From a virus: a DNA stretch of 33,514 nucleotides. The notes under the pieces were generated by a model. It was not told the DNA's origin and did not search any database. It saw only the letters and a program-made list of their open reading frames with translations. This document shows positions 3 through 33,207 of the stretch, piece by piece. Numbering within the stretch: the stretch's first letter is position 1; each line of letters begins with the position of its first letter. Made by a program: the position numbers and the translations under genes. The stretch lies in IMG/VR virus record IMGVR_UViG_3300031839_001235, positions 1-33,514 of that record. One strand, 5' to 3'.

Positions 3-3000
3 GTGGGAGCTAAAGCTCTTGGCGGAGCAGCAAGGGCTCAACGGATAGCGACCACTGCCGGTGCCACTACTGCCGGTGTAGGCACGGGTGCTTCTGAGCA
101 AGCTGATAGGATAGCCGCTGCCAGAGCTAGAGGAGAGGACGTATCCGCTGATCAAGAAGATCTGGCCATAGCTCTTGGAGGATTGGTTGGTGCAACGGAA
201 GCTATTGCTCCTCTTGAAGTTTTAAAAAAAATTAGAAGATTTAGAAACCCCCAGAAGAATGAAGAAGCATTCAATGCTGTGACTAGCGCATTGAGAACTG
301 GCGGTATAGAAGGAACTCAAGAGGTGGCTGCTAGTTTAATGCAGAATGCCATCGAGGACGGAGTCTATTCTGACAACGTTAACTACACTGAATCTTTGTG
401 GGATGACTTTACTGTAGGCGCAGGTGCAGGTGCGCTATTAGATGCTATGACTAACGGCGTTAACCGCCGTAGATCAAGAGCTGTTCTTGAAGCTGAAAGA
501 GAACGAGAGCAAGTTTTTCGAGACGAAGAAGCCGCTGCTTCTCAAGAGCTTTATGACAGAGCCGAACAAGCTAAACGGCTAGCAGAAGAAGACGCTGTAA
601 AAGCATCCACTCCGCTAATGAGCGGCATGGAAACGTTTGATCAAGATCAAGTTCAATTCGATTCTACACAGCCTTACTCAGGCAGAAAAACAAACATGGT
701 TAATAGGGCTGCAGATTATGCTAGCCAGTTAGCAAGAGCCGCTATTCAAAAAAGTGGAGTTTTTCCTGAGTCAGGTAAGTTTGATATTGTCGAAGAGAAG
801 CTTCCTGACGGCTCAGTATTTAAGGTTGTTCATTCCGAAACAGGCCAACAGTTTGGTCAGCCAGAACAAGAAAGAGAATCTGCTATTCATTTGATGGCAA
901 ATCTTAATCAAGAGCTGATTAATAGGAAGGTTAACGGAGCCGTAATAGACTCTTTAGATCTTGCTCCGCAGGCGTATACACCTGAGCAAGCAGAAAGCTT
1001 GTATGTTATTGGTCAAAGATTAAATAGACCCAAGCGTTTTACTGTTACTTCTGGAGTGCTTAACGAAGCAGCCGGGACAACTCAGTCCCCAAAGGCTCCG
1101 TATCAAGAAGATAAGACAATAGATCAGCTCCATGTTCTTCAGTATGGAGTCCCGCCATACACAGACAGAGGTAAAAAACTTTACCGAGACCTGTCGAATC
1201 TGACTGCAGCTCAAGAATTAAACCTTGAAAGAAGAAAGCAAGGCCTTCCCGAAGTCCAAGAGTTTACGCTAGAAGAAGCTAGACAAGTATTGGGCGACAA
1301 ATATTCAAACGTTTTTGATGTATTGCTTGGCGTTAATGCGCCAGATATGACCGAGACAATAGAAAACTTCGGTACTGTTGGCGCTCGTTTAGCGCAAAGC
1401 AGGCAGGAGTATCAGGATCAAAAACAAACATTAGACCAAGTGTCTACTGTGCTGAATGAAAAAAACATAGTCTCTGATGTCAACAGTCCTGAAGTTAAGT
1501 ACTTGTTTGAGAAGATTGTTAATGAACCTGATGTAAGCAAGATGACTCCTTCTCAGCGAATGTATCTTGTTCAAGAGGTTAAAAAACTTCCTGTAGTTCC
1601 GGAGCCGGCAGCTCTTCCTGACTTTAGACCAAAGACTTATACCCAAGGACAATACAACGCAGCCGTTCAGTACGTTACTGAGACTGGTGATGGCACTGTT
1701 GAAAACATTGAAAGCCAGCTTGGCGACATTGGTTCAACTAAGCGTGTGAGAAAAGTTGCTTCTGATTTACAAAAGGCAATGAAGAACACTGGCCTAATCA
1801 ATGACAAAGACGAAGTTGCTACTCGCACAGCATTGCCATCTCCAGAGCAATACCAGCCAGAAATTAAGCCATATAAAGAAACAGTCTCAGAGGATGCTGC
1901 CCAATTAGAAAAGCTTCTTAGTGAAGACTTAAGGGGCATGGGTTTAGATGACATCCGAGTTAGGGTTCTCGACGAGTTAAAGATTGGCCCTGTTACTAGA
2001 GAAGGCGAGGTAATCCTTACCGGAAAACCAGAAGAAAGAGCTGATCCAAATGTTGAGGGCTACTATAAGCCAAGGGCAAACACTGTTTTTCTTGCTCTCG
2101 ATAGGATTAAACAAACAGCTAGAGATCAAACGCCAGAGTCCAGAAGAGAAGCATTAGCTGACATCTTAAACCATGAGGTTGTTCATGGCGTTAGGAACTT
2201 AGACTTGTGGACAGATAAAGAATGGCGCTTGCTAGAAAATTTAGCAAGAAAAAAAGCTGTTCCGGGAACTGGAAACGTTACGTTCTTCAATGATGTTCAA
2301 TCAAGATATGAAAACTTATCTGCTGTTGGCCAGATGGAAGAAGCTGTTGCCGAGCTTATTAGGTATGCGCGAAAAGATAAGAAGTTTGTTACTGGGAAGC
2401 CTAAGACTTTAGTCGATAGGATGTATAACTTCTTTGAGAAAACAGGCAACGCTCTTAACGGAACCGGATTCCAAAGCTTCGATGATGTTTTGTCTAGGCT
2501 TGAGAAGGGAGAAGTTGGCTCAAGAGAAAGAGATCAAATAAGAACGCTTAAGTCTACAGAGAAAAAGTTAGGCGCTGTTCCCGAAAGGGGTATAGGCCTG
2601 TACCGCGATGTTAGGAATCTTACTCCGCAAACTGGAGAGGAAGAGATAGCTGCTTCAAGGCAAAGAGATAGAGCAGCAGAGCAAGGCTTTGACACTGAGA
2701 CTCCTTATTATCATGGGACTGTAGCAGGGGATATTAAAAAATTCAGAAGCGACCTTTCTAACGTCACCGCTAGCATGGGAGGTACTGATAATTTAATAGC
2801 TGGTCATTTTACTTCAAACGTAGATTTTGCAAATCGATTTTCAAGGAGCGATGAATACGGGAGTGCGTTTCTAAAATCAGATGAAAGTCCCGCTGTCTAT
2901 CCCGTTTACCTGAGGAAAGGAAAATCTTTTGACGCAGGAAAAATTTCTAGAGAACGAGACCCCGAAGACGAGCTTCAGGTTTTGCAAGATGAGATAGACA

Positions 3001-6000
3001 ATCTCTCCAATCCTTATTACGAGGAATATGTAAGCAACCAAATGGCTAAAATGTCTTATGATCCTGATGATGTTGCTACTAAAAAATCTATCATGGAAGT
3101 TAGAAGAGATCAGCTTTCATCTATAGTAGAAGATATTTTTGCAAACCCAAGAGAAGTTGCTTTTGCAGAGCTAGAACAGTTGGCTCCATTTATTCGCAGC
3201 GCAGGATACGATTCCTACGTTGACTATGAATACGGACTAAACGAAGAACTTTCTAACGAGTTTGCTGATGGTGACACTCTTGGGCCTCTTGGGTCTACTG
3301 GAATTGCAGTCTTTAAACCCTCAGATATTAAGGGTGTCTACGCTCAGTATGATCCATCAGGAGTTCCTCAAGGTTACGAATACGAAGACGACATCTTATT
3401 CTCAAAGAAAAAAGATCTTAAGAGAACTAAGACTGGTCAGTATGTTGGCGCACCCAAAGAACTTAATACGCCTCAAAAGTTAGGAGCCCTCAGAAGATCT
3501 ATAAAAGGCTTGGCAGAAGAGGGAGAAGGTGGCCGGTTCTGGTATGAGCAAAGTGGAAAAGCTTTGCTAAACATCACAGGCGGTAACAGGGAAGAGGCAA
3601 ATAAACTTGCTCAAGCAATAGCAATTACATCTCCGCAAACTCCTGTACCAAGCAACTTTAACTATGCCGTTCAAGCTTATTATCAGAACCGTGCAGGTCA
3701 ACCAATCAAGACGGGCATGTATCCCGGTTGGATGAGTAAGGCGTTAGAGGATGTATTTGCTGGCGGGGAATGGGAAGGTAGGAAGACAAACAACTTCTAC
3801 AACAACGTCATGCGAGAGATTGATGCCACTATCGAGCAAGGCGTAACTACAGACATATGGATGATGAGAGCCTTTGGTTTTATGGGCGACTCACCAACAG
3901 ATGCTCAATATACCTTCGTTGAGAATGAAGTAAAAAGTCTGGCTAATGAATTGGGCTGGGAACCTCAACAGGTTCAGGCTGCAGTATGGGTTGCTATGAA
4001 AGCGCGTACTGAAAACAAGATGGTCAAGGCCAAGACGGAAAAGATATCTCAACGAAAGGGGTACATGAAGTATGAGGTAGATCCAAAGACCAAGAAGAAA
4101 ACAAGGGTTCTTTTAGATCCAGAAAAGCATAGACAGACATGGCTTAATGAGGCCATGAAGTATGATCCGACAGGCGCAGAAAAGGATCAAGCTAAGTTTG
4201 ATTACAGCGATGCTGCTAGGAATAACCTTGCACAGGTAAGCTGGGAAAGCATTCCGGGAGCTACATCTGGTCACCTTAGGGAGATATTTGATGCTCAATA
4301 TCCAGAGTTACAAGATTATCATGTGCAAATATCGAAGGCATTCCTTAACGAAGAGGGCAATGATATTGCTGCTCTTGAGCTTGGGGTTCTTTCTCCGGGA
4401 GATTTTGAAGCTCCGGGATATTTTGAGGACAGGGTTTCTCCGGGCACTCAAACGCAAGTAGTCTCTCCTAAAAGATACAAAGTTAATGCACCTGCCTTTG
4501 AGATAGAACCTTCGTCAGAAGACTTAATAAAAGCTTACGCTGCGGTTCGTGGCGTGCTTATGAAACAGGATGGCGTTGGATATCATCGACCATTTTACGA
4601 TAAGGGTTTAAGGAAAGGTGATCTTAACGGTATTGAGATAGATATTGGCAGGCCGTTTACTGAAGAAGAGACTGCAAATCTTGCTGAGATAATGAAAGAG
4701 TATTCTGGTCACGGAGAGTATAACCCCATAGGGTCAGACTCAGGAGCTAGGCTAATAAACTTTGATTACTTAGAAGTCGATAACAATGACTTTAACAACA
4801 TGGTTATCAAAGCATTAACCAACATGGAGTTTGCTAACGGAGAGTCAGCCACAGCGGGAAGGTTCGCCGCTCAAGCTGGATACTTAGGTAACGATTGGAA
4901 GGTAAATAAAAATGGCGAAAGTTATATCGAAAGTCTTGGAGAAATCTCACCCGATCTACAGCGAAGGGTTGAAGATATCATCCGTAGGTTACAGCCCAGA
5001 ATTGATGCAGTCGATAAAGACTTCTCAGAAAGGTATGGCTGGACAGAAAACCAAGAGATCAATGAAAGATACAAGCCAAAAGAAAACGCAGTAAAGCCAG
5101 ATGAGAGTATGCAACAGGATGAGGTTGTTGAATCTCGTCGTCGCACAGCATCTGAAGTTGCTGCTGCCTTCGGAGAAAGAAGCCCTCCGGGAACTATTAT
5201 GCACTCTGTGGATAACTCTCCAGAGGTGCAAGAAGCACTTATTGATCAAGAAATACTTGGCGAACCTTTTAGTCTTCAAACAAAAGGCTACTCTTTCGGT
5301 GACAAATTTATCTATCAGGTTGCCGACAAGCTCGTTGGGCTTAAAGATGCCGAAGCAAAGATAAACAAATACAGACAGAGCTTAGGGTTGAAACCCCTTA
5401 GTGCAAAAGAGTCTGCATATATCGGAGAAGAATCTATTGCCGGCATTCTTGGAAACAAGATGCGTAATTTCCAAGAGGAAAAAAAGAAACCTTTAGCAAA
5501 GAAAATTGCTGACTCAGGATACAGTCTGGATGAAGTTGATGAGTTTCTTATTCTTCGCCATGCCATAGAGCGCAATCAAAAAATTGCAGCCCGTGACAAT
5601 CAAAGAGATGTCGAGATCAATCCCGGATCTGGAAAGCTTAAGACAGGTCAAACCCTTACTAACAGTTTTGTTAAACGCAAAATGAAAGAGCGTTATGACA
5701 TGGACTGGGATGATGCTACTGGAACTTGGACTGGAGGTAACGCTAGAGCTAAACGCCTTATGGACGTTGCGGCAGATGTCGATGCCATAGTGAATGACAC
5801 AATAGGATTCACAGTCGAAGGAGGCTTGTTAGATAACGATTCTGCTGAAGCAATCAGAACGGCTTACAAATATTATGCCCCCTTAAGAGGAAAAGACATT
5901 GAAGATGATTACGCTGAAACTGCAATTATAGGAAGCAGTATAAGCACTAAGGGCAAAGAGTTTCTCAGGGCGATGGGGAGAGAGTCAGCGGCTCAATCCC

Positions 6001-8153
6001 CCTTGGGACATGTCTTATTAAATGCTGAACGCGCAATGGCTAGAGGAGTGAAGAACAAGCAGTTTGGTGAGCGCCTAGTCGATTTGATACGCAACAATCC
6101 TGACGAAGATTTTTGGAGGGTTATCTCTCCAGAAGATCCAAGGTACATGCGAGCCTTTGAAAAGAAATTTACTTATGTTGGCAATGATAAAGACTTACAA
6201 GGTCAGGCATTCAACGAAATACCAAAGGGCGCAGACAAGAAAGATTACATACAAAAGATTGTGCTTAAGCGAGACAACCTTGGCCCCGGATTTGATCAAG
6301 ATCTTATTGGCATTAAGCTAGATGGTAAGCAAGTTTACGTCGAGCTTGCAGATAAAAGATTAAGAGATGCCATACTTGGTATGGATGGCGGGACTGCAGA
6401 CAATATTATCCGCAAGTTTGGCGTTGTTAATCGATTCCTTTCTATGGTTAACACCTCGCTCAACCCTGAATTTGTTATTGGCAACTTCTCCCGCGATGTT
6501 CAGACAGCAGTGTTCAACATCCTTGGCGAGCAAGACATGTCAATGGGTAAGGCTAAAGACCAAAAGCTTGTAGCTAAAGTTTTGAAAGATGTTATTCCTT
6601 CTATGGGTACGTTTTACAAAGGATCAAGAAGGTACTCCACTAAAGACGGCACGTTTAAAGGTAATCTTTTTGGGATGAGTCCTAAGGATCAGGCTGACTT
6701 CAAAGAGTTTATGGAAGCTGGTGCCAAGGCAGATTGGTTTCATTCTAGAAGTCCAGAGGATCAATTCAAAACAGTTCAGTCAATGATTGAAATGGCTAAC
6801 GGAACGTTTAAAGGAAACTTCCAAAGAAGATTTCAAAATGTAATGCAGTTTGTTGAAGACTCTAATGCTGCTGTTGAGAATGCTGTTCGACTGTCTACGT
6901 TTAAAGCCTCAAGAGATGAGCTGCTTAACGCAGGAGTTCCTAGATCTGAGGCTGTTGCTCAGGCAGCTTCTCTTGCTAAGAACTTAACGATTAACTTTAA
7001 CCGTAAAGGTAACGCTGGAGACTTGATCAACGCTATATATTTATTCTTCAATGCTAGCGTTCAAGGCACTGCAAATTTTGCAAGAGGGTTGTTCGGGCCT
7101 AAGATGAATCCGTTTAGTCCTGAGGCTAGTCGAGTTAAACAGGGTGCTGTTACATCCTTGATTATGTTTGGTGCTCTGTCTGCATTAAGAGCAGAAGAAG
7201 AAAGCGAAGAGAACCCAGAGACCGGAAGGTCTTATTACTCAGAGATTCCAAACTACATCAAAGAAAGAAACATCGTTGTTATGGCCGAAGACGGCAAGGA
7301 TTACTACACTATACCGCTGCCGTATGGGTACAACGTTTTCCATGTTCTTGGGCAGAATGTTTTCGAGATGAGCAACGGTCACATGTCACCAATGAAGGCA
7401 ACGTCAAATATAACCAGCGCCTTCTTAGGTTCATTTTCTCCGGTAGAATTTTCATCTCCTGCGCCAACAATTACGCAGCCATTTGTAGAAATAGCTAAGA
7501 ATGAAAACTTCTTTGGCTCTCCTATATATCGAGAAAATTTTCCGACAGGGACTCAGGTTCCAGAATCTCAACTGTCTATGTCAACAACAAAGACTCCGTT
7601 CAGATGGATGGCCAATCTTGCAAACTCATTGACAGGTGGAAATGAACAAGAACCCGGAGCTGTAGATATTTCTCCGGATGTTTTAGAACATTTAGCAGAG
7701 TTTATGTTTGGTGGAGCTGGAAGTTTTTTCACAAGAAATCTTAATGCTATTGAAAAGTGGCAAAAGGGAGAGGACTTAGAAGTTAGAGAGATGCCTTTCA
7801 TCAGAAGAATAAAAGGCGAGCCTAATGAAAGAGCAAGCATGTCAGACTTTTATGAGAGGAAGGTTAAGCTTGAACAAAAAGAAGCTAGACTTGAAGCGTT
7901 AAAAGGATCAGAAAGATTAGCGTACAGAAGGAGCAACGCTGATTACTTGAGGACGCTAAGAGATCTTGAGATCGCAGAAAAACAATTAAGATCTTTAAGG
8001 CAACAACGTAATAAGCTAAAAGAATTGGCAGCTAGATCTCCAGCAAACGCACTAAAGTATGGAAAGGCTGAAGAAGAAATTTACGATAAGATGAACTCGA
8101 TATACAACAGGTTTAACAAAGCTTATGACTACAAGGTGGGCAGGACTAAGTAA
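3..8153 (+). CDS. Giant polyvalent virion protein with metallopeptidase and ADP-ribosyltransferase-like domains (5' partial)
   Basis: At least 2716 residues are open; the GTG at base 3 is only the first possible start and the frame probably continues left of the window. Seen: a zinc-peptidase motif HEVVH at residues 724-728 with acidic residues near 779-785 that could supply a third ligand; an ART-like region beginning YYHGT at 902 and ending with a VFKPSDIKG stretch near 1103 and DDILFS near 1129; a further conserved-looking block starting GRFWYEQSGK near 1177; a hydrophobic patch near 2381-2395; and a charged coiled-coil-like C terminus from about 2620. This domain order is typical of phage polyvalent proteins, which are packaged in the capsid and ejected with the DNA. 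The role is inferred: processing of virion or host proteins and ADP-ribosylation of a host target. It ends 8 bases inside the convergent YbcO-type gene. Confidence 0.85.
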   Translation: MGAKALGGAARAQRIATTAGATTAGVGTGASEQADRIAAARARGEDVSADQEDLAIALGGLVGATEAIAPLEVLKKIRRFRNPQKNEEAFNAVTSALRTGGIEGTQEVAASLMQNAIEDGVYSDNVNYTESLWDDFTVGAGAGALLDAMTNGVNRRRSRAVLEAEREREQVFRDEEAAASQELYDRAEQAKRLAEEDAVKASTPLMSGMETFDQDQVQFDSTQPYSGRKTNMVNRAADYASQLARAAIQKSGVFPESGKFDIVEEKLPDGSVFKVVHSETGQQFGQPEQERESAIHLMANLNQELINRKVNGAVIDSLDLAPQAYTPEQAESLYVIGQRLNRPKRFTVTSGVLNEAAGTTQSPKAPYQEDKTIDQLHVLQYGVPPYTDRGKKLYRDLSNLTAAQELNLERRKQGLPEVQEFTLEEARQVLGDKYSNVFDVLLGVNAPDMTETIENFGTVGARLAQSRQEYQDQKQTLDQVSTVLNEKNIVSDVNSPEVKYLFEKIVNEPDVSKMTPSQRMYLVQEVKKLPVVPEPAALPDFRPKTYTQGQYNAAVQYVTETGDGTVENIESQLGDIGSTKRVRKVASDLQKAMKNTGLINDKDEVATRTALPSPEQYQPEIKPYKETVSEDAAQLEKLLSEDLRGMGLDDIRVRVLDELKIGPVTREGEVILTGKPEERADPNVEGYYKPRANTVFLALDRIKQTARDQTPESRREALADILNHEVVHGVRNLDLWTDKEWRLLENLARKKAVPGTGNVTFFNDVQSRYENLSAVGQMEEAVAELIRYARKDKKFVTGKPKTLVDRMYNFFEKTGNALNGTGFQSFDDVLSRLEKGEVGSRERDQIRTLKSTEKKLGAVPERGIGLYRDVRNLTPQTGEEEIAASRQRDRAAEQGFDTETPYYHGTVAGDIKKFRSDLSNVTASMGGTDNLIAGHFTSNVDFANRFSRSDEYGSAFLKSDESPAVYPVYLRKGKSFDAGKISRERDPEDELQVLQDEIDNLSNPYYEEYVSNQMAKMSYDPDDVATKKSIMEVRRDQLSSIVEDIFANPREVAFAELEQLAPFIRSAGYDSYVDYEYGLNEELSNEFADGDTLGPLGSTGIAVFKPSDIKGVYAQYDPSGVPQGYEYEDDILFSKKKDLKRTKTGQYVGAPKELNTPQKLGALRRSIKGLAEEGEGGRFWYEQSGKALLNITGGNREEANKLAQAIAITSPQTPVPSNFNYAVQAYYQNRAGQPIKTGMYPGWMSKALEDVFAGGEWEGRKTNNFYNNVMREIDATIEQGVTTDIWMMRAFGFMGDSPTDAQYTFVENEVKSLANELGWEPQQVQAAVWVAMKARTENKMVKAKTEKISQRKGYMKYEVDPKTKKKTRVLLDPEKHRQTWLNEAMKYDPTGAEKDQAKFDYSDAARNNLAQVSWESIPGATSGHLREIFDAQYPELQDYHVQISKAFLNEEGNDIAALELGVLSPGDFEAPGYFEDRVSPGTQTQVVSPKRYKVNAPAFEIEPSSEDLIKAYAAVRGVLMKQDGVGYHRPFYDKGLRKGDLNGIEIDIGRPFTEEETANLAEIMKEYSGHGEYNPIGSDSGARLINFDYLEVDNNDFNNMVIKALTNMEFANGESATAGRFAAQAGYLGNDWKVNKNGESYIESLGEISPDLQRRVEDIIRRLQPRIDAVDKDFSERYGWTENQEINERYKPKENAVKPDESMQQDEVVESRRRTASEVAAAFGERSPPGTIMHSVDNSPEVQEALIDQEILGEPFSLQTKGYSFGDKFIYQVADKLVGLKDAEAKINKYRQSLGLKPLSAKESAYIGEESIAGILGNKMRNFQEEKKKPLAKKIADSGYSLDEVDEFLILRHAIERNQKIAARDNQRDVEINPGSGKLKTGQTLTNSFVKRKMKERYDMDWDDATGTWTGGNARAKRLMDVAADVDAIVNDTIGFTVEGGLLDNDSAEAIRTAYKYYAPLRGKDIEDDYAETAIIGSSISTKGKEFLRAMGRESAAQSPLGHVLLNAERAMARGVKNKQFGERLVDLIRNNPDEDFWRVISPEDPRYMRAFEKKFTYVGNDKDLQGQAFNEIPKGADKKDYIQKIVLKRDNLGPGFDQDLIGIKLDGKQVYVELADKRLRDAILGMDGGTADNIIRKFGVVNRFLSMVNTSLNPEFVIGNFSRDVQTAVFNILGEQDMSMGKAKDQKLVAKVLKDVIPSMGTFYKGSRRYSTKDGTFKGNLFGMSPKDQADFKEFMEAGAKADWFHSRSPEDQFKTVQSMIEMANGTFKGNFQRRFQNVMQFVEDSNAAVENAVRLSTFKASRDELLNAGVPRSEAVAQAASLAKNLTINFNRKGNAGDLINAIYLFFNASVQGTANFARGLFGPKMNPFSPEASRVKQGAVTSLIMFGALSALRAEEESEENPETGRSYYSEIPNYIKERNIVVMAEDGKDYYTIPLPYGYNVFHVLGQNVFEMSNGHMSPMKATSNITSAFLGSFSPVEFSSPAPTITQPFVEIAKNENFFGSPIYRENFPTGTQVPESQLSMSTTKTPFRWMANLANSLTGGNEQEPGAVDISPDVLEHLAEFMFGGAGSFFTRNLNAIEKWQKGEDLEVREMPFIRRIKGEPNERASMSDFYERKVKLEQKEARLEALKGSERLAYRRSNADYLRTLRDLEIAEKQLRSLRQQRNKLKELAARSPANALKYGKAEEEIYDKMNSIYNRFNKAYDYKVGRTK

Positions 8154-16736: not shown

Positions 16737-17993
16737 TTAGATCTTAATGATCTCACCAAACTGCTCGCAACCATCAAACTGCGGATCAGTGAAGTTAGTC
16801 AGCCAGAATACTGGGTAGTCTGGGACTGAAAACTTCTCACCGTAGTAAGCATTCGGGCCAACGTCAGCCAGTCCATCAGTGAAGTAGACCAGAGCATTGG
16901 GGTTCACATCGTTGTGCTCACACCAGTTGAATGGTGGGTTGAACGCAGTGCCGCCGCCGCCGTGCATCTTCAGGACGATGTCATCGCCCCGTTCGAACTC
17001 GTCAACGTGGTTGACTGTGAAGTCGCAATAGATCACATACACCTTAGTCGGCTTGATGTCAGCCACGATGTCATCGATGTGATGACTGATGATTGATAGT
17101 TCGTGATCATCCAGTGAGCAAGAGGTGTCAACTGCGACAACCAGCTCGCCCGTTGGCTCGGTTATATTCGACGGCAACCTCAGCCCCCGAGACAGTAGCC
17201 TCCGGTTAGGTCTGGCGTAGGTCTGATCAGTGACCACGCTATCGCGCAGAGCATCTCTCAGAATCTCATTCCAAGGTTGAGAGTCACCCTTCAGCGAATC
17301 GATCATGTCCCTAGCCTGACCAAGCGAACCCTGACCAGCTTTGCGCTCAGCCTGAGCGGCTTGGTTGACTGCTGCCGCAACAGACCGTTGCTCCTCAGCT
17401 TTGCCAGACTCGTCGAGCAGCTCGCCATCGTCATCAACCCCGTCTCTAACCTCACCCCAAGGCACGCCAGAGTCAGATTGTGAGGTTGCTCCAGAGTCAG
17501 ATTGTGAGCTGTCGTCATCGCCATCTTGGTCAGATGAAGGGTCAGATGAAGGGTCAGCCCCGTCAACAGCCTTGCTACCCTCTCCGTCCTCGTCCTGCTG
17601 AGGCTTGCTGATGTCAGAGTAGATCCGCTCAGCCGCCCAATCTCGATACTTGCGATTGAACAGTCCGTCATCTGGAAGGGTGAACCCAGCCTTAATCAGA
17701 CCTTCGTTGATCGCGTAATCACAGGCTTGATTCCAAAGCTTATGATCACGGCCATCTTTCCTCAGGTGGTGCCCGTATCCGATGTGAGCGCATTCATGAG
17801 CGAGCACACCGGCAACCTCAGGCACGGTCAGGCTATCTACCCAAGCAGGGTTGAAGAAAATACTCTTGCCATCAGTGGCCATTGTCGGCGTGTTGGCAGC
17901 ATCCTCGACAAGCTGCAATCGATAGAGCAAGCAGGCGTAGAAGGGGTGATCTGCAATCATGCGCTGTCGCGCCTTAGCTATTTGCACGTTCAT
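16737..17993 (-). CDS. Metallopeptidase-like/VWA protein (DUF2201 type)
   Basis: 418 residues. N-terminal domain with a zincin motif HECAH at 66-70, following VAGVLA; a low-complexity acidic D/S linker about 131-200; then a von Willebrand A-like domain with an intact metal site: D289-T-S291-C-S293, T349 in HGGGGTAF and D373 in FTDG. The order fits DUF2201 proteins, which are encoded beside MoxR AAA+ ATPases. The VWA domain would bind substrate or the ATPase through a metal ion; the peptidase half may be active or only structural. Start: CTAGGAG, in which the previous gene's stop TAG is embedded, lies upstream. The region looks more GC-rich than the structural genes. Confidence 0.85.
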   Translation of the reverse strand: MNVQIAKARQRMIADHPFYACLLYRLQLVEDAANTPTMATDGKSIFFNPAWVDSLTVPEVAGVLAHECAHIGYGHHLRKDGRDHKLWNQACDYAINEGLIKAGFTLPDDGLFNRKYRDWAAERIYSDISKPQQDEDGEGSKAVDGADPSSDPSSDQDGDDDSSQSDSGATSQSDSGVPWGEVRDGVDDDGELLDESGKAEEQRSVAAAVNQAAQAERKAGQGSLGQARDMIDSLKGDSQPWNEILRDALRDSVVTDQTYARPNRRLLSRGLRLPSNITEPTGELVVAVDTSCSLDDHELSIISHHIDDIVADIKPTKVYVIYCDFTVNHVDEFERGDDIVLKMHGGGGTAFNPPFNWCEHNDVNPNALVYFTDGLADVGPNAYYGEKFSVPDYPVFWLTNFTDPQFDGCEQFGEIIKI

Positions 17994-18883: not shown

Positions 18884-18896
18884 AATCTCCTAGATT
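18884..18896 (-). promoter_or_regulatory. SD hairpin AATCT-AGG-AGATT
   Basis: Arms AATCT and AGATT pair perfectly around AGG, so the Shine-Dalgarno sequence CUAGGAG is half looped and half paired. The stop codon TAG of the MoxR gene (18892-18890) is part of it, so a ribosome finishing MoxR would open the hairpin for the next gene. Confidence 0.55.
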
Positions 18897-19987
18897 GCGA
18901 CACGTTGAGTGTCAATTTTGAATTGAACGTAGGCTTCAGAGGCCTTCAGATCTTTATCACGATTGGTGGCGATGAGGAAAAATACCGCGAGCAACTCTTC
19001 ATCAATGCGCCGCAAATAACTAACAGCGTTATCGACATTTCGATTGTCGCAACGTTGAGCCAGTATCGTGGCGATGGCGTACTTGGTTGCCAGCTCTCGG
19101 TCATCAGGCACATTGGCTGAGTCAGGGTCTCGCAGGATATGGCCAGCATCTGGAAGGTTGCGGACAATCTGCAAGAATCCAACGAACTCAGCGGCAGCAC
19201 CCTTACCCACTGCACCCTCAATGGCTGCGTGTTCTAAAGATTTGGGTAAACCAGCTTGCAAAATGGCAGAGACAGACTCCCAACCGCGAGGTGTAGCAGC
19301 GGCAGTGAACCCCTTGGGTATGCCACCCTCTGGGTATTCGTGAAGCAGTCCAGCCTGATCGATTGAACCGTCACCCTTTAGAATTGGCTTGCCACGGTTA
19401 GCGATGAAGGCGATCACCTCAGGTGCATAGCCAGCCGATCCCGCGAAGTTGACCCACTCGTCAACGTCAGGCACCACGTTGAGCTGCACGCTAAATCGGG
19501 TCATGAGGGCAGCGTCCTGTCGGCCATGAACGCCGGCACCATCACATGATCGATTAGACGCGGCGATGATTCTCCAACCCTCAGGCAAAACGTAGTCGCC
19601 AAGCTGTCTGTCATTGATTAGCTGGTACAACGATGATTGGACTGACACAGACCCAAGAAGCAGCTCGTCGGTGAACAGGATGCCGTGCTCGCCGTCACGG
19701 TCAACACGCGGTAACCAGTCGGGCAATGCAAACGCAGTGCGTCCATCGACAAGGTCAGGGATGCCTCGGGTATCGACAGCATCAAGCTGGGACGCTCGAA
19801 CGTCGATGAGACCCCACTGATTGCCGGTCTGCTCAGAGAGAGACGCAACGATTGACTGCACAATGGATGATTTACCCACGCCGAACGCACCCCAGAGAAA
19901 AACGGGGCGTACCTTGTGAGGGATAAGCGACTCCACAATGGTGGCCGCTTGGTTGAGTGACACAGTCGCAATGTTTGAATACTGCAT
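18890..19987 (-). CDS. MoxR-family AAA+ ATPase
   Basis: 365 residues. Walker A GAFGVGKS at 33-40, Walker B GILFTDE with D107-E108, sensor 1 N145 in RIIAASNR, and R164 in ALMTRF as a possible arginine finger. MoxR ATPases form hexamers that remodel or activate partner proteins together with a VWA protein, which lies two genes downstream. Known relatives mature enzymes (for example metal insertion), but the phage target is unknown; similar marine-phage genes have been annotated as cobS. Its start follows a hammerhead ribozyme (20019-20071) and an SD hairpin (19993-20007), so this gene heads an mRNA segment made by RNA self-cleavage. Confidence 0.9.
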   Translation of the reverse strand: MQYSNIATVSLNQAATIVESLIPHKVRPVFLWGAFGVGKSSIVQSIVASLSEQTGNQWGLIDVRASQLDAVDTRGIPDLVDGRTAFALPDWLPRVDRDGEHGILFTDELLLGSVSVQSSLYQLINDRQLGDYVLPEGWRIIAASNRSCDGAGVHGRQDAALMTRFSVQLNVVPDVDEWVNFAGSAGYAPEVIAFIANRGKPILKGDGSIDQAGLLHEYPEGGIPKGFTAAATPRGWESVSAILQAGLPKSLEHAAIEGAVGKGAAAEFVGFLQIVRNLPDAGHILRDPDSANVPDDRELATKYAIATILAQRCDNRNVDNAVSYLRRIDEELLAVFFLIATNRDKDLKASEAYVQFKIDTQRVAI

Positions 19988-24939: not shown

Positions 24940-25218
24940 ATGAAAAAAACTAAAGGTTACATGCTAGGTGGCAAGACTAAAGGAATGTCTAAGGGCGGTA
25001 AATTAAAAATGACCACCAATAAGCAGGGCAAAGAGGTTCCTTTCTTTGCTGCTGATGGCGTTGGCAAAATGAGTTCTGGGCGAAAAGTCCCAACGACTAA
25101 AGGTTATTTTATGGGCGGTAAGACTAAGGGCATGGCCAAAGGCGGCAAGACCGGAGGTAAAACAATAGCTCGCGGATCTGGCGCAGCAAGACCTCAAGAA
25201 TTTGGAAAGAATGGCTAA
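24940..25218 (+). CDS. Lys/Gly-rich repeat protein, 92 aa
   Basis: The sequence carries an internal duplication: KTKGYMLGGKTKGMSKGGK near residues 3-21 and TTKGYFMGGKTKGMAKGGK near 52-70. Very basic, few hydrophobic residues, so it is likely disordered and able to bind DNA or an acidic partner. It lies between the unknown 225-aa gene and the portal gene (TAATG overlap). Related small basic proteins occur at 32412-33207. Confidence 0.7.
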   Translation: MKKTKGYMLGGKTKGMSKGGKLKMTTNKQGKEVPFFAADGVGKMSSGRKVPTTKGYFMGGKTKGMAKGGKTGGKTIARGSGAARPQEFGKNG

Positions 25219-27689
25219 TGGCTATCGATAGAACTCTTCGCTCCAATCCACTGGTTGGAGAAGGAGGCGACATTGAGATTGAAATAGAAAACCCTGAGGC
25301 TGTTTCTATTGAAACAGAAGATGGCGGGGTTATTTTAGATTTTGATCCTGATGCAAGCACGCTAGCATCGCTAGGAATGCTTCCCCATGATGCTAACTTA
25401 GCAGACGTTGTCGATGATGCAGAGTTAAGTGTAATGGCATCTGAGCTTGTTGGGCAGTTTAAGTCTGACAAAGAAAGTCGTGCAGATTGGGAAAGAGCCT
25501 ATGTTGATGGCCTAGATTTGCTTGGCCTTAAGAATGAAGACAGAACCACACCGTGGGACGGTGCTTGTGGGGTCTTTCATCCATTGCTTTCTGAGTCTGT
25601 AATCAAGTTCCAGTCTCAGTCCATACAAGAGCTATTCCCAGCAAGCGGGCCTGTAAAAACTTCAGTTGTTGGCGCAATAACTGATGATAAAGAAAAGCAA
25701 GCTTACAGGGTTCAGAATTATTTAAACTACCTGCTTACAGAAAAAATGACAGAGTATCGCTCGGAAACCGAGAAGATGTTGTTTTCTTTGCCGTTAGCGG
25801 GCAGTGCTTTTAGAAAGATCTACTATGATCCCAGCATGGGCAGACCGTGCAGCATGTTTGTTCCAGCAGAAGACTTTGTTGTTAGCTATGGAGCGTCAGA
25901 CCTAACAACCTGTGAAAGAGCTACTCACATCATGAAGCGGACTTCTAATGAGATCCGCAAGCTTCAGGTGTCTGGTTTTTATAAAGACATAGAACTTGGG
26001 GCTCCTTCTAATGATGTTGATAGGATTGAGGAAAAATATAATAGGCTGACCGGAGACAGCGCCAGTTACGATCTGGACTCAAGGCACACTATCTTGGAGA
26101 TGCAAGTAAATTTAGACCTTGTAGGCTTTGAAGACGAAGAGGGCGGAGAGCCTACAGGCATTGCTCTGCCTTATGTTGTATCAATAGACCTTGGCTCTAG
26201 AGAAATATTATCTATACGGCGCAATTGGTATGAGGGCGATAACCTAAAAACAAAGCGTGAGCACTTCGTTCATTACCAATATATACCCGGATTAGGATTT
26301 TATGGGTTTGGATTGATCCACATGATAGGTGGACTAGCCAAATCGGCTACATCATTACTCCGTCAATTAGTAGACGCAGGCACTTTATCTAATCTTCCGG
26401 GCGGACTTAAGTCTAGAGGGCTAAGAATTAAGGGTGATGACACCCCAATCATGCCCGGAGAGTTCCGAGACGTAGATGTTCCGGGTGGAGCGATCAAAGA
26501 CAACATCAGCTTCATGCCATATAAAGAGCCAAGCAACGTTTTGTATCAGTTGATGGGCGATATTGTAGAAGAAGGTAGGCGATTTGCCTCCGCAGCAGAC
26601 GTTAAAGCTGCAGATATGAACGCAGAAGCCCCTGTTGGCACAACATTGGCCATACTTGAGCGGTCAATGAAGGTAATGAGCGCCATTCAGGCCCGATTAC
26701 ACGCCTCTATGCGCGTAGAATTAAGGATATTAAGTGGTCTTGTAAGGGATTTTGGGCCCGAAAAGTACCCATACCTGCCTGATACCGACGATTTAGTCTC
26801 TGAAGACTTCGATGATCGCGTAGATATCATTCCTGTCAGCGATCCTAACGCTGGAACGATGGCTCAAAGGATAATGCAGTACCAAGCAGCTCTGCAATTA
26901 GCGGCTCAAGCCCCAGAAATGTACGATATGCCGTTATTGCACCGTCAAATGCTAGATATATTGGGCATTCAGGACGCAGAAAAGATTGTTCCTACAGATA
27001 AGGACATGAAACCCACTGATCCTGTTAGTGAAAACATGGATATCATTAATGGTAAGCCTGTCAAAGCGTTTATCTACCAAGATCACGAAGCTCACATCCA
27101 GACTCACATGAGTTTGACGCAAAATCCGCAGGTTATGGAAATAATGGGCAAAAGCCCCAACGCAAAGAAAGCTATGGCGGAGATGTCGGCGCATGTACAA
27201 GAGCACTTGGCGTTCAAGTACAGGCAAGAAATAGAAAAAGAACTTGGAGTAGAGCTTCCAACCCCAGAAGAGTCGCTGCCTGAAGATATTGAGTACAGAA
27301 TATCCAGACTGGTAGCTCCTGCTGCGGCGCAAATTACAGGCAAAGCGGCAAGAGAGCAGCAAGCGCAGCAAGCTCAACAAAAAGCTCAAGATCCTATAGT
27401 GCAAATGCAACAACAAGAGCTTCAGATTAAACAGCAAGAGGTTCAGCAACGTGCTCAAGCCGAAATGGCTAAGATACAGCTAGATATGCAGAAACTTATG
27501 ATGAAATCAGAGCTGGATAGAGAGCGATTAGACCAGCAAGAAAGATTAGAGACTGCAAAAATTGGAGCAAAGATAGCTGAGACTAATTCTAAGGAAGAAT
27601 TAGAAGCTTCTAGGATAGCATCCCAAAATGAAATAGATGGGGCTAAGCTTGGTGTCCAAGTTGCTAAAGATATTATGGGAAATAAATGA
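25218..27689 (+). CDS. Portal protein
   Basis: 823 residues, in the range of P22-like and podoviral portals. Landmarks: SDKESRADWERAYVDGLDLLG near 91-111, TPWDGACGVFHPLLSESVIKFQSQSIQELFPASGPVKT, LPLAGSAFRKIYYDPSMGRP, and a central PVGTTLAILERSMKVMSAIQARLH helix. A Q/E/K-rich coiled coil occupies about 710-810. It forms the 12-mer ring through which DNA enters and leaves the head. It follows the terminase region and overlaps the next gene by ATGA. Confidence 0.88.
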   Translation: MAIDRTLRSNPLVGEGGDIEIEIENPEAVSIETEDGGVILDFDPDASTLASLGMLPHDANLADVVDDAELSVMASELVGQFKSDKESRADWERAYVDGLDLLGLKNEDRTTPWDGACGVFHPLLSESVIKFQSQSIQELFPASGPVKTSVVGAITDDKEKQAYRVQNYLNYLLTEKMTEYRSETEKMLFSLPLAGSAFRKIYYDPSMGRPCSMFVPAEDFVVSYGASDLTTCERATHIMKRTSNEIRKLQVSGFYKDIELGAPSNDVDRIEEKYNRLTGDSASYDLDSRHTILEMQVNLDLVGFEDEEGGEPTGIALPYVVSIDLGSREILSIRRNWYEGDNLKTKREHFVHYQYIPGLGFYGFGLIHMIGGLAKSATSLLRQLVDAGTLSNLPGGLKSRGLRIKGDDTPIMPGEFRDVDVPGGAIKDNISFMPYKEPSNVLYQLMGDIVEEGRRFASAADVKAADMNAEAPVGTTLAILERSMKVMSAIQARLHASMRVELRILSGLVRDFGPEKYPYLPDTDDLVSEDFDDRVDIIPVSDPNAGTMAQRIMQYQAALQLAAQAPEMYDMPLLHRQMLDILGIQDAEKIVPTDKDMKPTDPVSENMDIINGKPVKAFIYQDHEAHIQTHMSLTQNPQVMEIMGKSPNAKKAMAEMSAHVQEHLAFKYRQEIEKELGVELPTPEESLPEDIEYRISRLVAPAAAQITGKAAREQQAQQAQQKAQDPIVQMQQQELQIKQQEVQQRAQAEMAKIQLDMQKLMMKSELDRERLDQQERLETAKIGAKIAETNSKEELEASRIASQNEIDGAKLGVQVAKDIMGNK

Positions 27690-27883
27690 CAAAAGAAGTA
27701 GACATATTTGATTATTTGAGGTCAAATGTTAGAGATCAGATGAATGACATAAGTGATCACATTAGTGGTGGCGGATGTAAAGATTTTGCAGAGTACACAA
27801 AATGCTGCGGAATTATTCAGGGTTTAGCACAAGCTGAACGAGAGATATTAGACGCTAAGTCTCGATACGAGAACGCGCAATAA
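27686..27883 (+). CDS. Small protein, 65 aa, unknown
   Basis: Coupled to the portal gene by ATGA. Sequence begins MTKEVDIFDYLRSNVRDQMN and continues HISGGGCKDFAEYTKCCGII; helical with three cysteines in a short span (residues 31, 39, 40). Small proteins of this kind often follow portal genes in podoviruses; the role is unknown. Its stop codon is immediately followed by the tandem RNA hairpins. Confidence 0.7.
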   Translation: MTKEVDIFDYLRSNVRDQMNDISDHISGGGCKDFAEYTKCCGIIQGLAQAEREILDAKSRYENAQ

Positions 27884-27936
27884 CGACTCTAGGCGTTTTC
27901 CTAGTGCAAACGACTTCGGGCGTTTTCCCGATGCAA
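27883..27936 (+). ncRNA. Two tandem 27-nt hairpin units with compensatory changes, before the GroES-like gene
   Basis: Each unit is ACGACT, a 5-base arm, loop CGTTTT, the paired arm, then TGCAA. Arms are CTAGG/CCTAG in unit 1 (27883-27909) and TCGGG/CCCGA in unit 2 (27910-27936). The two units differ at six positions, and these form exactly three exchanged base pairs. Selection on RNA folding is strongly suggested. The ribosome binding site GGAGAG follows directly. Likely a regulator or protein-binding leader of the co-chaperonin mRNA. Confidence 0.8.
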
Positions 27937-27946
27937 AGGAGAGTAT

Positions 27947-28324
27947 ATGAGCGAAACTGCTCAGCAACTAGAGACCAAAGAGTCTCGAAACGCAAACCAA
28001 CTTCCTGAGCCTAAAGGCTATAAGATTTTGATTGCGCTACCAGATCCCGATTCAGAATATGATGGCGGGATAATTAAATCCAAGAAAACTCTTCAGGAAG
28101 AAGAGCTTGGTTCTATCTGCGGGATGGTTCTTAAAATGGGGCCAGATTGCTACAAAGATGCGAATAGATTCCCTTCTGGTTCTTTTTGTGAAGAGGGCGA
28201 TTGGATCATTATGAGGTCTTACTCAGGCACTCGATTCAAAGTTCACGGCAAAGAGTTCCGGTTAATAAACGATGACAGTGTTGAAGCTGTAGTTGAAGAC
28301 CCAAGGGGGATCGTAAAAGCATGA
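27947..28324 (+). CDS. GroES-like co-chaperonin
   Basis: 125 residues. From residue 20 the order fits GroES: LPEPKGYKILIALPDPDSEY, a G/K/S/T mobile-loop segment DGGIIKSKKTLQEEEL near 40-55, SICGMVLKMGP, GSFCEEGDWIIMRSYSGTRF, then KVHGKEFRLINDDSVEAVVE. Phage versions (as T4 gp31) replace host GroES so that GroEL can fold the capsid protein, whose gene lies nearby. The loop lacks the usual I-V-L triplet pattern except GII, so GroEL contact is probable, not certain. Translation is preceded by the tandem hairpins at 27883-27936. Confidence 0.8.
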   Translation: MSETAQQLETKESRNANQLPEPKGYKILIALPDPDSEYDGGIIKSKKTLQEEELGSICGMVLKMGPDCYKDANRFPSGSFCEEGDWIIMRSYSGTRFKVHGKEFRLINDDSVEAVVEDPRGIVKA

Positions 28325-29376
28325 GTGAAGTAATAGAAGATCAAGTTCCTGAGGAACAAGATAGTTCTCACAGCGCAGAAGAAAAATTTTTCGGCATAAA
28401 AACTACGCACGGAAAAAAGAAGCAAGCCGAAACGGGCTCTGAGTCTAGCGAGTACGAGTTTGAAATTGTTGATGACCGTCCTCAAGAAGACAGGAGACCC
28501 GCTAAAGCTTCGCAAAGTTCTAGTGATGACGACGAAGAGCTTGGCCAGTATTCTGATAAAGTTCAGAAAAGGCTTAATAAGCTTAAGTTTGATTATCACG
28601 AAGAGCGCCGTCAGCGAGAATCCGCAGAAAGAATGCGAGAAGAAGCTGTCAAGGTTGCTCAGCAATACGCAAATAAAGCTCAAGAGCAAGAGTCTCTAAT
28701 AAGTAGAGGCGAAGCAGCATTAGTTGAGCAGATCAGAGAAAGAGCCCACTTAAGATTAGAGCAAGCAAAAGAAGGCTACCGTAAAGCTTATGAAGAAGGC
28801 GATACGGATGGAGTAGTAAATACTCAAGAGCAAATGCTTAAAGCTCAATCAGAGTTATCTGAGATTGAAAGGTATAGAAACAACCTAAACAATCAAGCTC
28901 AGAACGCTCAGGCTTATCAACAACAAGCGTATCAGCAAGATATTGCAAGAAGAGCTGCTCAAAACGTAGCTGCTCAACAACAAGTTCAGCCACAAGTTAC
29001 ACCAGAAGCAGAGCAATGGGCTCAAAAAAACAACTGGTTTATGGCTGAAGGTTATGAAGATATGACTGCGTTAGCCTATGGGGCACATACGCAAGCTGTT
29101 CGATCAGGCATTGATGTAAGATCAAAAGAGTATTTTGATTACATAGATGGCAAAGTAAGATCAGCATTTCCAGATTACGATTGGTCGGATTCAAGCGATA
29201 CAAATGGCCGTAGCGCGACCGTGACGACTAATCGACCCTCGACGGTGGTGGCACCTTCCGCAAGGAATAATGGTGCTAAACCGCGCAAAGTACGGTTAAC
29301 GGCCACTCAAGTAGCCCTCGCCAAGCGACTTGGGTTAACAAATGAACAGTATGCCCGACACGCCGAGATGCTCTAA
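28321..29376 (+). CDS. Scaffolding protein
   Basis: 351 residues, coupled by ATGA to the co-chaperonin gene. An acidic, low-complexity N terminus (EVIEDQVPEEQDSSHSAEEK) leads to a long helical Q/E/A-rich coiled coil about 90-230, then a conserved-looking AEQWAQKNNWFMAEGYEDMT block near 232-251 and a basic C terminus (KPRKVRLTATQVALAKRLGL). This composition and place before the capsid gene are typical of podoviral scaffolds that guide prohead assembly and then leave. Confidence 0.82.
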   Translation: MSEVIEDQVPEEQDSSHSAEEKFFGIKTTHGKKKQAETGSESSEYEFEIVDDRPQEDRRPAKASQSSSDDDEELGQYSDKVQKRLNKLKFDYHEERRQRESAERMREEAVKVAQQYANKAQEQESLISRGEAALVEQIRERAHLRLEQAKEGYRKAYEEGDTDGVVNTQEQMLKAQSELSEIERYRNNLNNQAQNAQAYQQQAYQQDIARRAAQNVAAQQQVQPQVTPEAEQWAQKNNWFMAEGYEDMTALAYGAHTQAVRSGIDVRSKEYFDYIDGKVRSAFPDYDWSDSSDTNGRSATVTTNRPSTVVAPSARNNGAKPRKVRLTATQVALAKRLGLTNEQYARHAEML

Positions 29377-30485: not shown

Positions 30486-31424
30486 ATGGCTATTTCAAGA
30501 GCGCAAATGCTTAAAGAACTCCTGCCGGGGCTTAATGCTCTTTTTGGCTTGGAGTACGAAAAATACGAAGATGAACACACTCTCATTTATGAGACTGAAA
30601 GTTCTGATCGTTCTTTTGAAGAAGAAGTAAAGCTGTCTGGATTTGCTGCTGCACCAGTCAAAGCTGAAGGCGCTGCCATCAGTTATGATTCTGCACAAGA
30701 ATCTTTCACGGCTCGCTACAATCATGAAACAATTGCTATGGGCTTTAGTATTACCGAAGAAGCTATGGAAGATAACTTGTATGACTCATTGTCTGCTCGT
30801 TATACCAAGGCTCTTGCCCGCGCTATGGCATACACTAAGCAAGTTAAGTCGGTATTCCCTCTTAACAATGGCTTCTCTAATAGTTATCAGTCTGGGGACG
30901 GTGTAAACCTGTTCACTGCTTCTGGTGACGGAGTTGCCGGTGGCGATGGTCACCCATTGGTTAGTGGCGGCAAAAACAACAACCGTCCTGTGACGGCTGC
31001 TGACCTCAATGAAACGTCTTTGGAAAATGCAATTATTGACATTGCTGCCTTCACCGACGAAAGAGGCTTGTTAATTGCTGCGCGTCCTCGTCGCTTGATT
31101 GTACCACCCGCTTTGATGTTTACAGCAGATCGTCTGTTGGAATCTACTCAGCGAGTTGGCACGGCGGACAACGACATTAACGCTATTCGTAACATGGGCG
31201 CAATCCCAGAAGGTTACAGCGTTAACCACTATCTGACCGATAGCAATGCTTTCTTTATCATTACGGATATTCCTAATGGTATGAAGCACTTTGAACGGAC
31301 TCCACTCGAAACTTCTATGGATGGTGACTTCGATACAGGTAACGTGCGCTATAAGGCGCGTGAACGTTACTCCTTCGGGGTTTCTGATCCACTTGGAATT
31401 TACGGGTCTCCCGGTTCAAGTTAA
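30486..31424 (+). CDS. Major capsid protein (HK97-like fold)
   Basis: 312 residues. Landmarks: MLKELLPGLNALFGLEYEKY, IYETESSDRSFEEEVKLSGF (E-loop region), NHETIAMGFSITEEAMEDNL, an A/G-rich HPLVSGGKN hinge, RPRRLIVPPALMFTADRLLE, and TGNVRYKARERYSFGVSDPLGIYGS at the C end, as in the Mu/T7-type capsids. A strong terminator follows at 31429-31452, as expected for a highly expressed capsid gene. AAGGAG precedes the ATG. Confidence 0.9.
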   Translation: MAISRAQMLKELLPGLNALFGLEYEKYEDEHTLIYETESSDRSFEEEVKLSGFAAAPVKAEGAAISYDSAQESFTARYNHETIAMGFSITEEAMEDNLYDSLSARYTKALARAMAYTKQVKSVFPLNNGFSNSYQSGDGVNLFTASGDGVAGGDGHPLVSGGKNNNRPVTAADLNETSLENAIIDIAAFTDERGLLIAARPRRLIVPPALMFTADRLLESTQRVGTADNDINAIRNMGAIPEGYSVNHYLTDSNAFFIITDIPNGMKHFERTPLETSMDGDFDTGNVRYKARERYSFGVSDPLGIYGSPGSS

Positions 31425-31980: not shown

Positions 31981-32001
31981 GGGGACTACGTCCCCTTTAT
32001 T
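31981..32001 (+). terminator. Hairpin GGGGAC-TAC-GTCCCC followed by TTTATT
   Basis: Perfect six-pair stem with a 3-base loop and a short T-rich tail, between two structural genes. Likely an attenuator that lowers transcription of the following genes. Confidence 0.55.
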
Positions 32002-32011
32002 GGAGGACATA

Positions 32012-32419
32012 ATGGCTGATGCAGTAGCTACACAAACAATACAAGAAGACGGCAAGTTTGCTATCTTCCGCTTTTCTAATACCTCTGACGGAACGGGTGA
32101 GGCGGCTGTTACAAAAATTGATGTATCAGCTCTTAGCCCAGACCCCATGACAGGTAAAGCTTGTTCTGGTGTAAGCATCCAATACATTTGGTACGTCACT
32201 GTTGGCATGGGCGTTAAAATTTTATTTGATGCAACTACAGATGTGCTTGCTTGGGAGCTTAATTCCGATTGGGCAGACTCTATAGATTTTACTAGCTTTA
32301 GCGGCATTCCTAATAATGCAGGATCAGGTAAAACTGGAGACGTTGCGTTTACCACTGTAGGCGCTGGGTCGGGCGATACTTATAACATTGTCATGCAAGT
32401 TAAAAAAAGCTATGGCTAA
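32012..32419 (+). CDS. Virion structural protein, 135 aa
   Basis: ATG 32012 is chosen because GGAGG lies 5 bases before it. Beta-rich product (IQEDGKFAIFRFSNTSDGTG, VTKIDVSALSPDPMTGKACS, VSIQYIWYVTVGMGVKILFD, NAGSGKTGDVAFTTVGAGSG, TYNIVMQVKKSYG). It resembles small phage structural proteins of unknown place in the particle. Its last codons overlap the start of the next gene. Confidence 0.7.
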   Translation: MADAVATQTIQEDGKFAIFRFSNTSDGTGEAAVTKIDVSALSPDPMTGKACSGVSIQYIWYVTVGMGVKILFDATTDVLAWELNSDWADSIDFTSFSGIPNNAGSGKTGDVAFTTVGAGSGDTYNIVMQVKKSYG

Positions 32420-32624
32420 AGCAAAGAAAAAAGCTGCACCAAAAAAGAAAGCCAAGTCTCGTGTAAATGAGGCTGGCAATTATACAAAACCAGCCTTAAG
32501 AAAAAGATTGTTTAGTGAAATAAAATCTGGATCTAAGGGTGGCAAGAGTGGCCAATGGTCGGCAAGAAAAGCTCAAATGCTAGCAAAGCGTTATAAAGAT
32601 GCTGGCGGAGGCTATCGAGATTAA
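32412..32624 (+). CDS. Small basic protein with WSARKAQ motif, 70 aa
   Basis: ATG 32412 lies 8 bases inside the previous gene. An extremely basic start (AKAKKKAAPKKKAKSRV) is followed by NYTKPALRKRLFSEIKSGSK and GQWSARKAQMLAKRYKDAGG. The WSARKAQ-K-YK-GGGY pattern is common in small virus proteins but has no established function that I can cite. DNA contact is suggested by charge. Confidence 0.7.
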   Translation: MAKAKKKAAPKKKAKSRVNEAGNYTKPALRKRLFSEIKSGSKGGKSGQWSARKAQMLAKRYKDAGGGYRD

Positions 32625-32878
32625 TGGCTCTTAAAAAGTCTCAAAAGTCCCTTAAGAAATGGACAAAGGAAGAATGGGGAACTAAGTCTGGAAAACCCTC
32701 AACTCAAGGTAAGAAAGCTACAGGTGAACGGTATCTTCCAAAAAAAGCTAGGAAAGCTTTGACTGATAAAGAGTATGCGGCTACTTCTAAAAAGAAAAGA
32801 GCCGATACAAAAAAAGGCAAGCAGCATTCTAAGCAACCAAAGAAGATAGCTAAAAAAACTGCGAGGCATCGTAAATGA
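32624..32878 (+). CDS. Small basic protein, 84 aa (DUF5872-like)
   Basis: Starts with the A of the previous stop (TAATG). The pattern SLKKWTKEEWGTKSGKPSTQ, GERYLPKKARKALTDKEYAA and TKKGKQHSKQPKKIAKKTAR resembles a short domain found in phages and large DNA viruses (I believe DUF5872). About one third lysine/arginine. Packaged DNA-binding or internal virion protein is a guess. Confidence 0.7.
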   Translation: MALKKSQKSLKKWTKEEWGTKSGKPSTQGKKATGERYLPKKARKALTDKEYAATSKKKRADTKKGKQHSKQPKKIAKKTARHRK

Positions 32879-33207
32879 GTTTGACTGATGCAGAAAAAAA
32901 TCGTTTAAAAAAAGCAGGTGTTTCTGGTTTAAATAAGCCAAAAAGAACTCCTAGCCACCCAACAAAAAAGGGTGTTGTAGCGATAAGAGATGATGGCAAA
33001 GTTCGAATTATTAGATTTGGTGACCAAAAAATGGGTCACAATTATTCTGCAGAAGCTAGAAAATCATTTAAGGCAAGGCATGCCAAGAATATAAAAAAAG
33101 GTAAGACTAGCGCAGCTTACTGGGCGGATAAACTTTTTTGGTCAGGAAAAGGCGGCAGTAAAAAGAGTCCGCCAAAAAACCAAAAACAAAAATTTGGAGG
33201 CAAATAA
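32875..33207 (+). CDS. Conserved small phage protein, 110 aa
   Basis: ATGA overlap with the previous gene. SLTDAEKNRLKKAGVSGLNK, PKRTPSHPTKKGVVAIRDDG, KVRIIRFGDQKMGHNYSAEA and RKSFKARHAKNIKKGKTSAAYWADKLFW match a small family I have seen repeatedly in marine podovirus structural regions. Basic, with a conserved ARH-x-K-N core. Unknown function. A K/G/S-rich tail ends NQKQKFGGK. Confidence 0.75.
   Translation: MSLTDAEKNRLKKAGVSGLNKPKRTPSHPTKKGVVAIRDDGKVRIIRFGDQKMGHNYSAEARKSFKARHAKNIKKGKTSAAYWADKLFWSGKGGSKKSPPKNQKQKFGGK

Follow-up and report, generated by a model that had tools for sequence, protein, structure and literature searches.

The region between ORF65 and groES

The window (the whole stretch of DNA that we analyzed) is a virus record from IMG/VR, 33,514 bases long. 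The genes for the terminase (22751), the portal protein, a 65-aa ORF (ORF65), GroES, a 351-aa protein, and the major capsid protein are all in one direction. The features around groES are:

25218-27689, + strand: portal protein gene (phrog_1216), upstream neighbor of the 65-aa ORF
27686-27883, + strand: 65-aa ORF (ORF65), stop codon TAA at 27881-27883, upstream of the element
27937-27941, + strand: Shine-Dalgarno sequence (SD) AGGAG of groES, read from the sequence, immediately 3' of unit 2
27947-28324, + strand: groES (Cpn10), Pfam PF00166 (E=2e-6), phrog_3188 co-chaperonin GroES (E=2e-13)
28321-29376, + strand: 351-aa gene after groES, phrog_28737, no function assigned, in a scaffold-like position
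30486-31424, + strand: major capsid protein gene (phrog_371, Pfam PF25209)

The 65-aa protein had no match in Pfam or PHROG. ORF65 was conserved across all of the relatives that carry the element described below, and cultured relatives have small genes of similar size in its place.

Several other genes in the window were noted in addition. The minus strand contains a gene for a MoxR-like AAA ATPase (18890-19987) near one for a DUF2201 metallopeptidase/VWA protein (16737-17993); that is, a MoxR-VWA pair is present in a phage (16737-19987). A 2716-residue ORF (3-8153) that runs past the left end probably encodes a virion polyprotein. Small lysine-rich ORFs are found close to the capsid genes at 24940-25218 and 32388-33207, and the one at 24940-25218 has internal repeats (KTKGYMLGGKTKGMSKGGK).

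Sixty-three nucleotides separate the TAA of ORF65 from the ATG of groES, and both of the 27-nt units that concern us are inside this gap. Unit 1 (27883-27909) is ACGACT-CTAGG-CGTTTT-CCTAG-TGCAA and unit 2 (27910-27936) is ACGACT-TCGGG-CGTTTT-CCCGA-TGCAA. The first-pass annotation described two adjacent 27-nt units whose six differences make up three exchanged base pairs (C-G/U-A, U-A/C-G, and A-U/G-C), and we found both the sequence and the coordinates to be right. The pattern ACGACTN5CGTTTTN5TGCAA occurs twice in the whole window, both times at this site, and allowing up to three mismatches gave three matches in the window compared to 0.09 expected.

Each unit is a pseudoknot with two covarying helices

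We found that each unit is an H-type pseudoknot with two crossing helices (P1 and P2), both of them supported by covariation across many lineages. The flanks and loops had been noted as unchanged between the two units. They are indeed identical, and both actually take part in a second base-paired helix. All parts are on the + strand, and were assigned from the sequence together with covariation in relatives (of P1 and P2 in the case of unit 1):

27882-27909, + strand: pseudoknot unit 1
27882-27885 with 27894-27897, + strand: unit 1 P1, AACG with CGTT
27889-27893 with 27900-27904, + strand: unit 1 P2 core, CTAGG with CCTAG
C27887-G27906 and U27888.U27905, + strand: unit 1 P2 extension
A27886, 27898-27899, and 27907-27909, + strand: unit 1 L1, L3, and tail CAA
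27908-27936, + strand: pseudoknot unit 2
27908-27912 with 27921-27925, + strand: unit 2 P1, AAACG with CGTTT
27916-27920 with 27927-27931, + strand: unit 2 P2 core, TCGGG with CCCGA
C27914-G27933 and U27915.U27932, + strand: unit 2 P2 extension
A27913, 27926, and 27934-27936, + strand: unit 2 L1, L3, and tail CAA

The general plan of a unit is a P1 of 3-4 bp, a short L1, a P2 of 5 bp plus U.U and C-G, and an L3 of 1-4 nt. L3 and P2 are followed by UGCA and then by the SD. The sequence from the pseudoknot to the start of groES is AGGAGAGTAT. When 19 gene starts of the window were scanned for generic pseudoknots, unit 2 was the best. The generic scan gave one weaker match, at 32000 (background rate 5%), and the leader of groES was the only site in the window that passed a model of the motif.

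The first reading of the units was as plain hairpins with fixed contacts in the loop and flanks. This anatomy proved wrong, since the flank ACG/AACG pairs with the loop CGT/CGTT. In relatives, flank and loop change jointly (GCG:CGC, GGUG:CACC, CGUG:CACG, AUG:CAU, CGCG:CGCG). Because flank and loop covary, we dropped plain hairpins with fixed loops in favor of a pseudoknot.

We measured pairing and covariation in 32 diverse units. P1 was paired in 97.7% of cases and P2 in 88.4%, with the U.U layer scored as unpaired in the latter figure. Three of four P1 pairs and all five P2 core pairs had changed on both sides. The covariation score was 0.574, compared to 0.291±0.020 for shuffled and at most 0.159 for slid alignments, and the outcome was the same when the loop-8 and loop-6 classes were analyzed separately. 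In the P2 extension the C-G pair is invariant, and the U.U layer is replaced by A-U or G.U in some lineages. The unit search demanded P2 plus the bases G-AC and TGC and left P1 pairs 2-4 free; in the units that it recovered from the two main loop classes, P1 pairs 2 and 3 form in 38/38 and 52/52 and P1 pair 4 in 30/38 and 50/52.

The changes in P1 were also followed on a codon tree of groES that was built without the leader and had 183 rows, some of them possibly mis-parsed by a looser unit finder. Each P1 pair had 15-34 joint state changes on this tree. Independent pairs of rows co-changed at about 8:0, 11:0, and 10:0 for P1 pairs 2, 3, and 4 (sign test, p = 0.008, 0.001, and 0.002, respectively). 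Where the two sides of P1 both differed in an independent pair, the change was in the same direction nearly every time.

The fold is in RNA of the + (coding) strand, as indicated by the wobble pairs in P1, where G.U occurs 17 times and A.C once. A DNA element (an origin, packaging site, or recombination site) might also be built of tandem inverted repeats. However, this strand asymmetry disfavors it, as do the fixed spacing to the SD and an orientation that is always that of groES, and we consider a DNA site extremely improbable.

In arrays with more than one unit, pairing is within a unit. The loop pairs with its own flank in 43 cases compared to 8 with that of another unit, and P2 arms pair with their own partner in 76 cases compared to none. 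The P2 sequences of adjacent units in an array differ nearly always, which would prevent mispairing between neighbors. The three swaps between the units in the window are probably a consequence of this use of different P2 sequences by neighboring units.

Leaders of related phages

We scanned IMG/VR by groES, by portal, and by the motif alone. This gave several hundred loci, and we tabulated all distinct gaps between ORF65 and groES (176 distinct). The suggestion that a functional RNA fold lies ahead of this phage groES was borne out: the fold recurs, with covariation, in related phages. The same array, with added covariation, is present before groES in about 160 distinct related sequences, and so the pattern is far outside what chance would give. 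The phages that carry it are uncultured and mostly marine; they make up a large group, with one to four small folds before groES. Nearly all of the gaps are 34-121 nt long (mostly 55-65) and consist almost entirely of stem domains.

There are three types of leader. The type in the window has two or three tandem units, and 23 arrays contain two or three pseudoknots. The commonest type has one plain 5' hairpin (for example CGCTAC-ataa-GTAGTG, CGTTAC-acaag-GTAACG, or CCGC-ataa-GCGG) and then one pseudoknot unit; 5' hairpin stems of at least 5 bp were found in 53 of 67 leaders compared to 18 of 67 shuffled ones. The third type has a single unit directly behind the stop codon (L295, L316). Counting against the role proposed below, some lineages vary bases that are otherwise fixed, such as L295 and L296, which are without U.U, and one group (L326, L347) has stems with UGCA and no recognized pseudoknot.

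The stop codon of ORF65 is itself part of the fold, in that TAA supplies the first two bases of P1 in unit 1. In leaders of the window type a TAA stop accompanies CGTT in the P1 of the first unit, and a TAG stop usually accompanies CGC. A pseudoknot right at a stop codon could be a recoding signal (readthrough or frameshift) that fuses the 65-aa ORF to GroES. However, the frame of groES relative to that of the 65-aa ORF can be any of the three, 100 of 155 leaders have in-frame stops further on, and groES has its own SD and start. With frames and stops unconstrained, recoding has almost nothing to recommend it.

The element is tied to the start of groES

The element is a conserved RNA pseudoknot tied to the start of groES translation. 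Most matches to the motif (386/405) were less than 700 nt ahead of groES, the remainder being contig ends or chance, and the orientation always matched that of groES. In long records (up to 82 kb), a covariance model placed a strong match at the groES locus in 13 of 14 and a marginal match only in the remaining one; it found one locus per long record and none elsewhere. The possibility had been raised that copies precede other late genes. We found none; in IMG/VR the element precedes groES only. The UGC of the unit was 11-14 nt ahead of the start codon in most related leaders (127/153). The element remains at groES where an ORF has been inserted after ORF65 (L172, L437) and where ORF65 has been duplicated (L241, L249). 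The inserted small ORF in L172 and L437, between ORF65 and the RNA element, encodes a Cys-rich (zinc-ribbon-like) protein.

The element was absent from the cultured relatives examined (HTVC027P, HTVC023P, 023Pt_psg01, DSL-LC04, MinM2, and CRP-902). In these, groES either overlaps the gene before it or begins no more than about 15 nt from it. When we scanned GTDB contigs for the commonest variant, we obtained a single match, a 7.3-kb contig (L189) binned as a Cellvibrionales MAG that bears ORF65, the RNA element, and a phage groES. It is possible that this contig is a hint of the host, or it may be a binning error. Since this sole match carries the phage groES region, this one scan gave no sign of a host family of the element.

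A probable role in initiation of groES translation

Based on these results we infer that the units are a leader element of groES in the phage late mRNA and control initiation of groES translation, and we put the probability of this at about 0.55. Lineages without the element have the layout of translational coupling. Those with it have a structured spacer and a separate SD for groES, so that groES probably initiates without dependence on the gene before it. With the space from the upstream stop codon to the SD taken up by the array, groES would be served by fresh binding of 30S at its own SD and not by termination-reinitiation, which would be the arrangement in the relatives without the element. 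At the position of the SD-proximal pseudoknot, the mRNA would contact both the 30S platform and protein S1, as it does in the leaders of rpsO and tisB. The rate of initiation might be set by docking and melting of this pseudoknot. Extra 5' domains could be spacers or insulators against the terminating ribosome.

We found no support for a thermometer-like sequestration or exposure of the SD. In RNAfold, which considers nested folds only, predicted accessibility of the SD was 0.51, compared to 0.53 with shuffled upstream sequence; that is, real leaders were no different from shuffled ones. A riboswitch-like RNA, in which tandem small aptamers sense a ligand and gate translation of groES, would resemble the element in having small H-type pseudoknots at the RBS, conserved unpaired bases, and tandem copies. 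However, the SD is outside the fold, the sequences of L3 and P1 are free, and the element precedes groES only, with no metabolic gene context. We consider this very unlikely.

The array might act on the mRNA and not on the ribosome. As a processing or stability element it would block 3'-5' or 5' end-dependent decay and so keep the portal portion apart from a stable groES-scaffold-capsid mRNA, and the tandem stable folds are found exactly in the one gap between low- and high-demand genes. However, for such an element the spacing to the start codon would not have to be held at 11-14 nt, and there is no long duplex for RNase III, so that this role seems improbable. There is also no U tract behind the stems on the + strand, and so no intrinsic terminator. 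We found no GC hairpin plus U tract on the + strand at 27880-27940, and neither a terminator nor a promoter on the + strand at the site of the element.

Since A-C, U-G-C-A, and U.U are nearly fixed, the fold may be read by a protein or by the ribosome. It is possible, though rather unlikely, that the array is a translational operator like that of T4 gene 32, bound cooperatively by a phage or host protein that represses or activates groES late. The near-invariant G-A-C and U-G-C-A in every copy exceed what pairing needs, copy number varies from one to four with identical flanks, and the U.U layer, in which we saw no pairs other than A-U and G.U, is retained. In addition, a phage pseudoknot operator of 28 nt is a direct precedent (PMC535899). 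However, there is no candidate protein, a single copy is enough in some lineages (L316, L295), and UUAAA repeats like those in the operator of T4 are missing.

Control of initiation by the leader remains our preferred reading. We tentatively suggest, in addition, that the one to four hairpin or pseudoknot modules, each closed by C-G and followed by CA, may be a new modular RNA family, so far in uncultured phages, and that the modules may be a cooperative switch, read by a protein or the ribosome, that times co-chaperonin synthesis relative to capsid assembly. In other phages, groES is needed for folding of the capsid. Many IMG/VR records with the element are related to the HTVC023P-type group, and GroES is part of the core genome published for that group (PMC9599517). 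Structured RNA control elements are little explored in uncultured marine phages, and this one has strong covariation support, is absent from Rfam, and is linked to one gene. It allows direct tests of how a phage sets the level of its co-chaperonin and of how a pseudoknot that abuts an SD affects 30S initiation.

Comparison with known leader RNAs

No named family had come to mind for the units from their sequence, and our search of Rfam 15 agreed with this: it gave chance-level matches only, none at the gathering threshold. We also found no publication describing the element in a search of the literature. Pseudomon-groES RNA (RF01721) is a candidate structured RNA before the chromosomal groES of Pseudomonas. 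It is like the element in preceding groES and unlike it in belonging to a chromosomal gene of Pseudomonas, and the Rfam search gave no match between the two.

The STAXI RNA motif (RF01728) is a pseudoknot tandemly repeated two to three times (PMC2864571). The tandem pseudoknots are alike. In contrast, STAXI RNAs are found in Enterobacteriales, near genes for ssb, topoisomerase, antirestriction, and integrase, and have UUCG tetraloops; we found neither a match to RF01728 nor DNA-handling gene neighbors for the element.

Two bacterial leaders have a pseudoknot at or upstream of the RBS. In the rpsO leader (S15 autoregulation), a pseudoknot sits on the 30S platform and is melted by S1 (PMC3858243). 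The position at the RBS, suited to the 30S platform, is the same. However, rpsO is a bacterial gene and its pseudoknot includes part of the coding sequence, whereas the fold described here ends before the SD and leaves both SD and start outside. In tisB, an H-type pseudoknot upstream of the RBS functions in standby and recruits S1 and 30S (PMC7708055). Its RBS is sequestered and about 100 nt away, and it works together with a single-stranded region, whereas the element, also an H-type pseudoknot upstream of an RBS, abuts the SD.

Another parallel in kind is the operator of gene 32 in T4. This operator has a one-nucleotide L1 over a 7-bp stem 2; the element likewise has a short L1 over stem 2, which here is C-G, U.U, and 5 bp. 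In both cases a pseudoknot in phage mRNA precedes the SD of one gene. The operator of T4, T2, and RB69 is an H-type pseudoknot of about 28 nt that is read by gp32 itself (PMC535899). It leads ssb, and its one copy is separated from the start by about 40 nt or more that include UUAAA repeats. In contrast, the element leads groES in one to four copies that abut the SD, and we saw no sequence relation between the two. The element is a new RNA family, and the general kind to which it belongs, the leader pseudoknots of phages, is already known, as in T4 gene 32.
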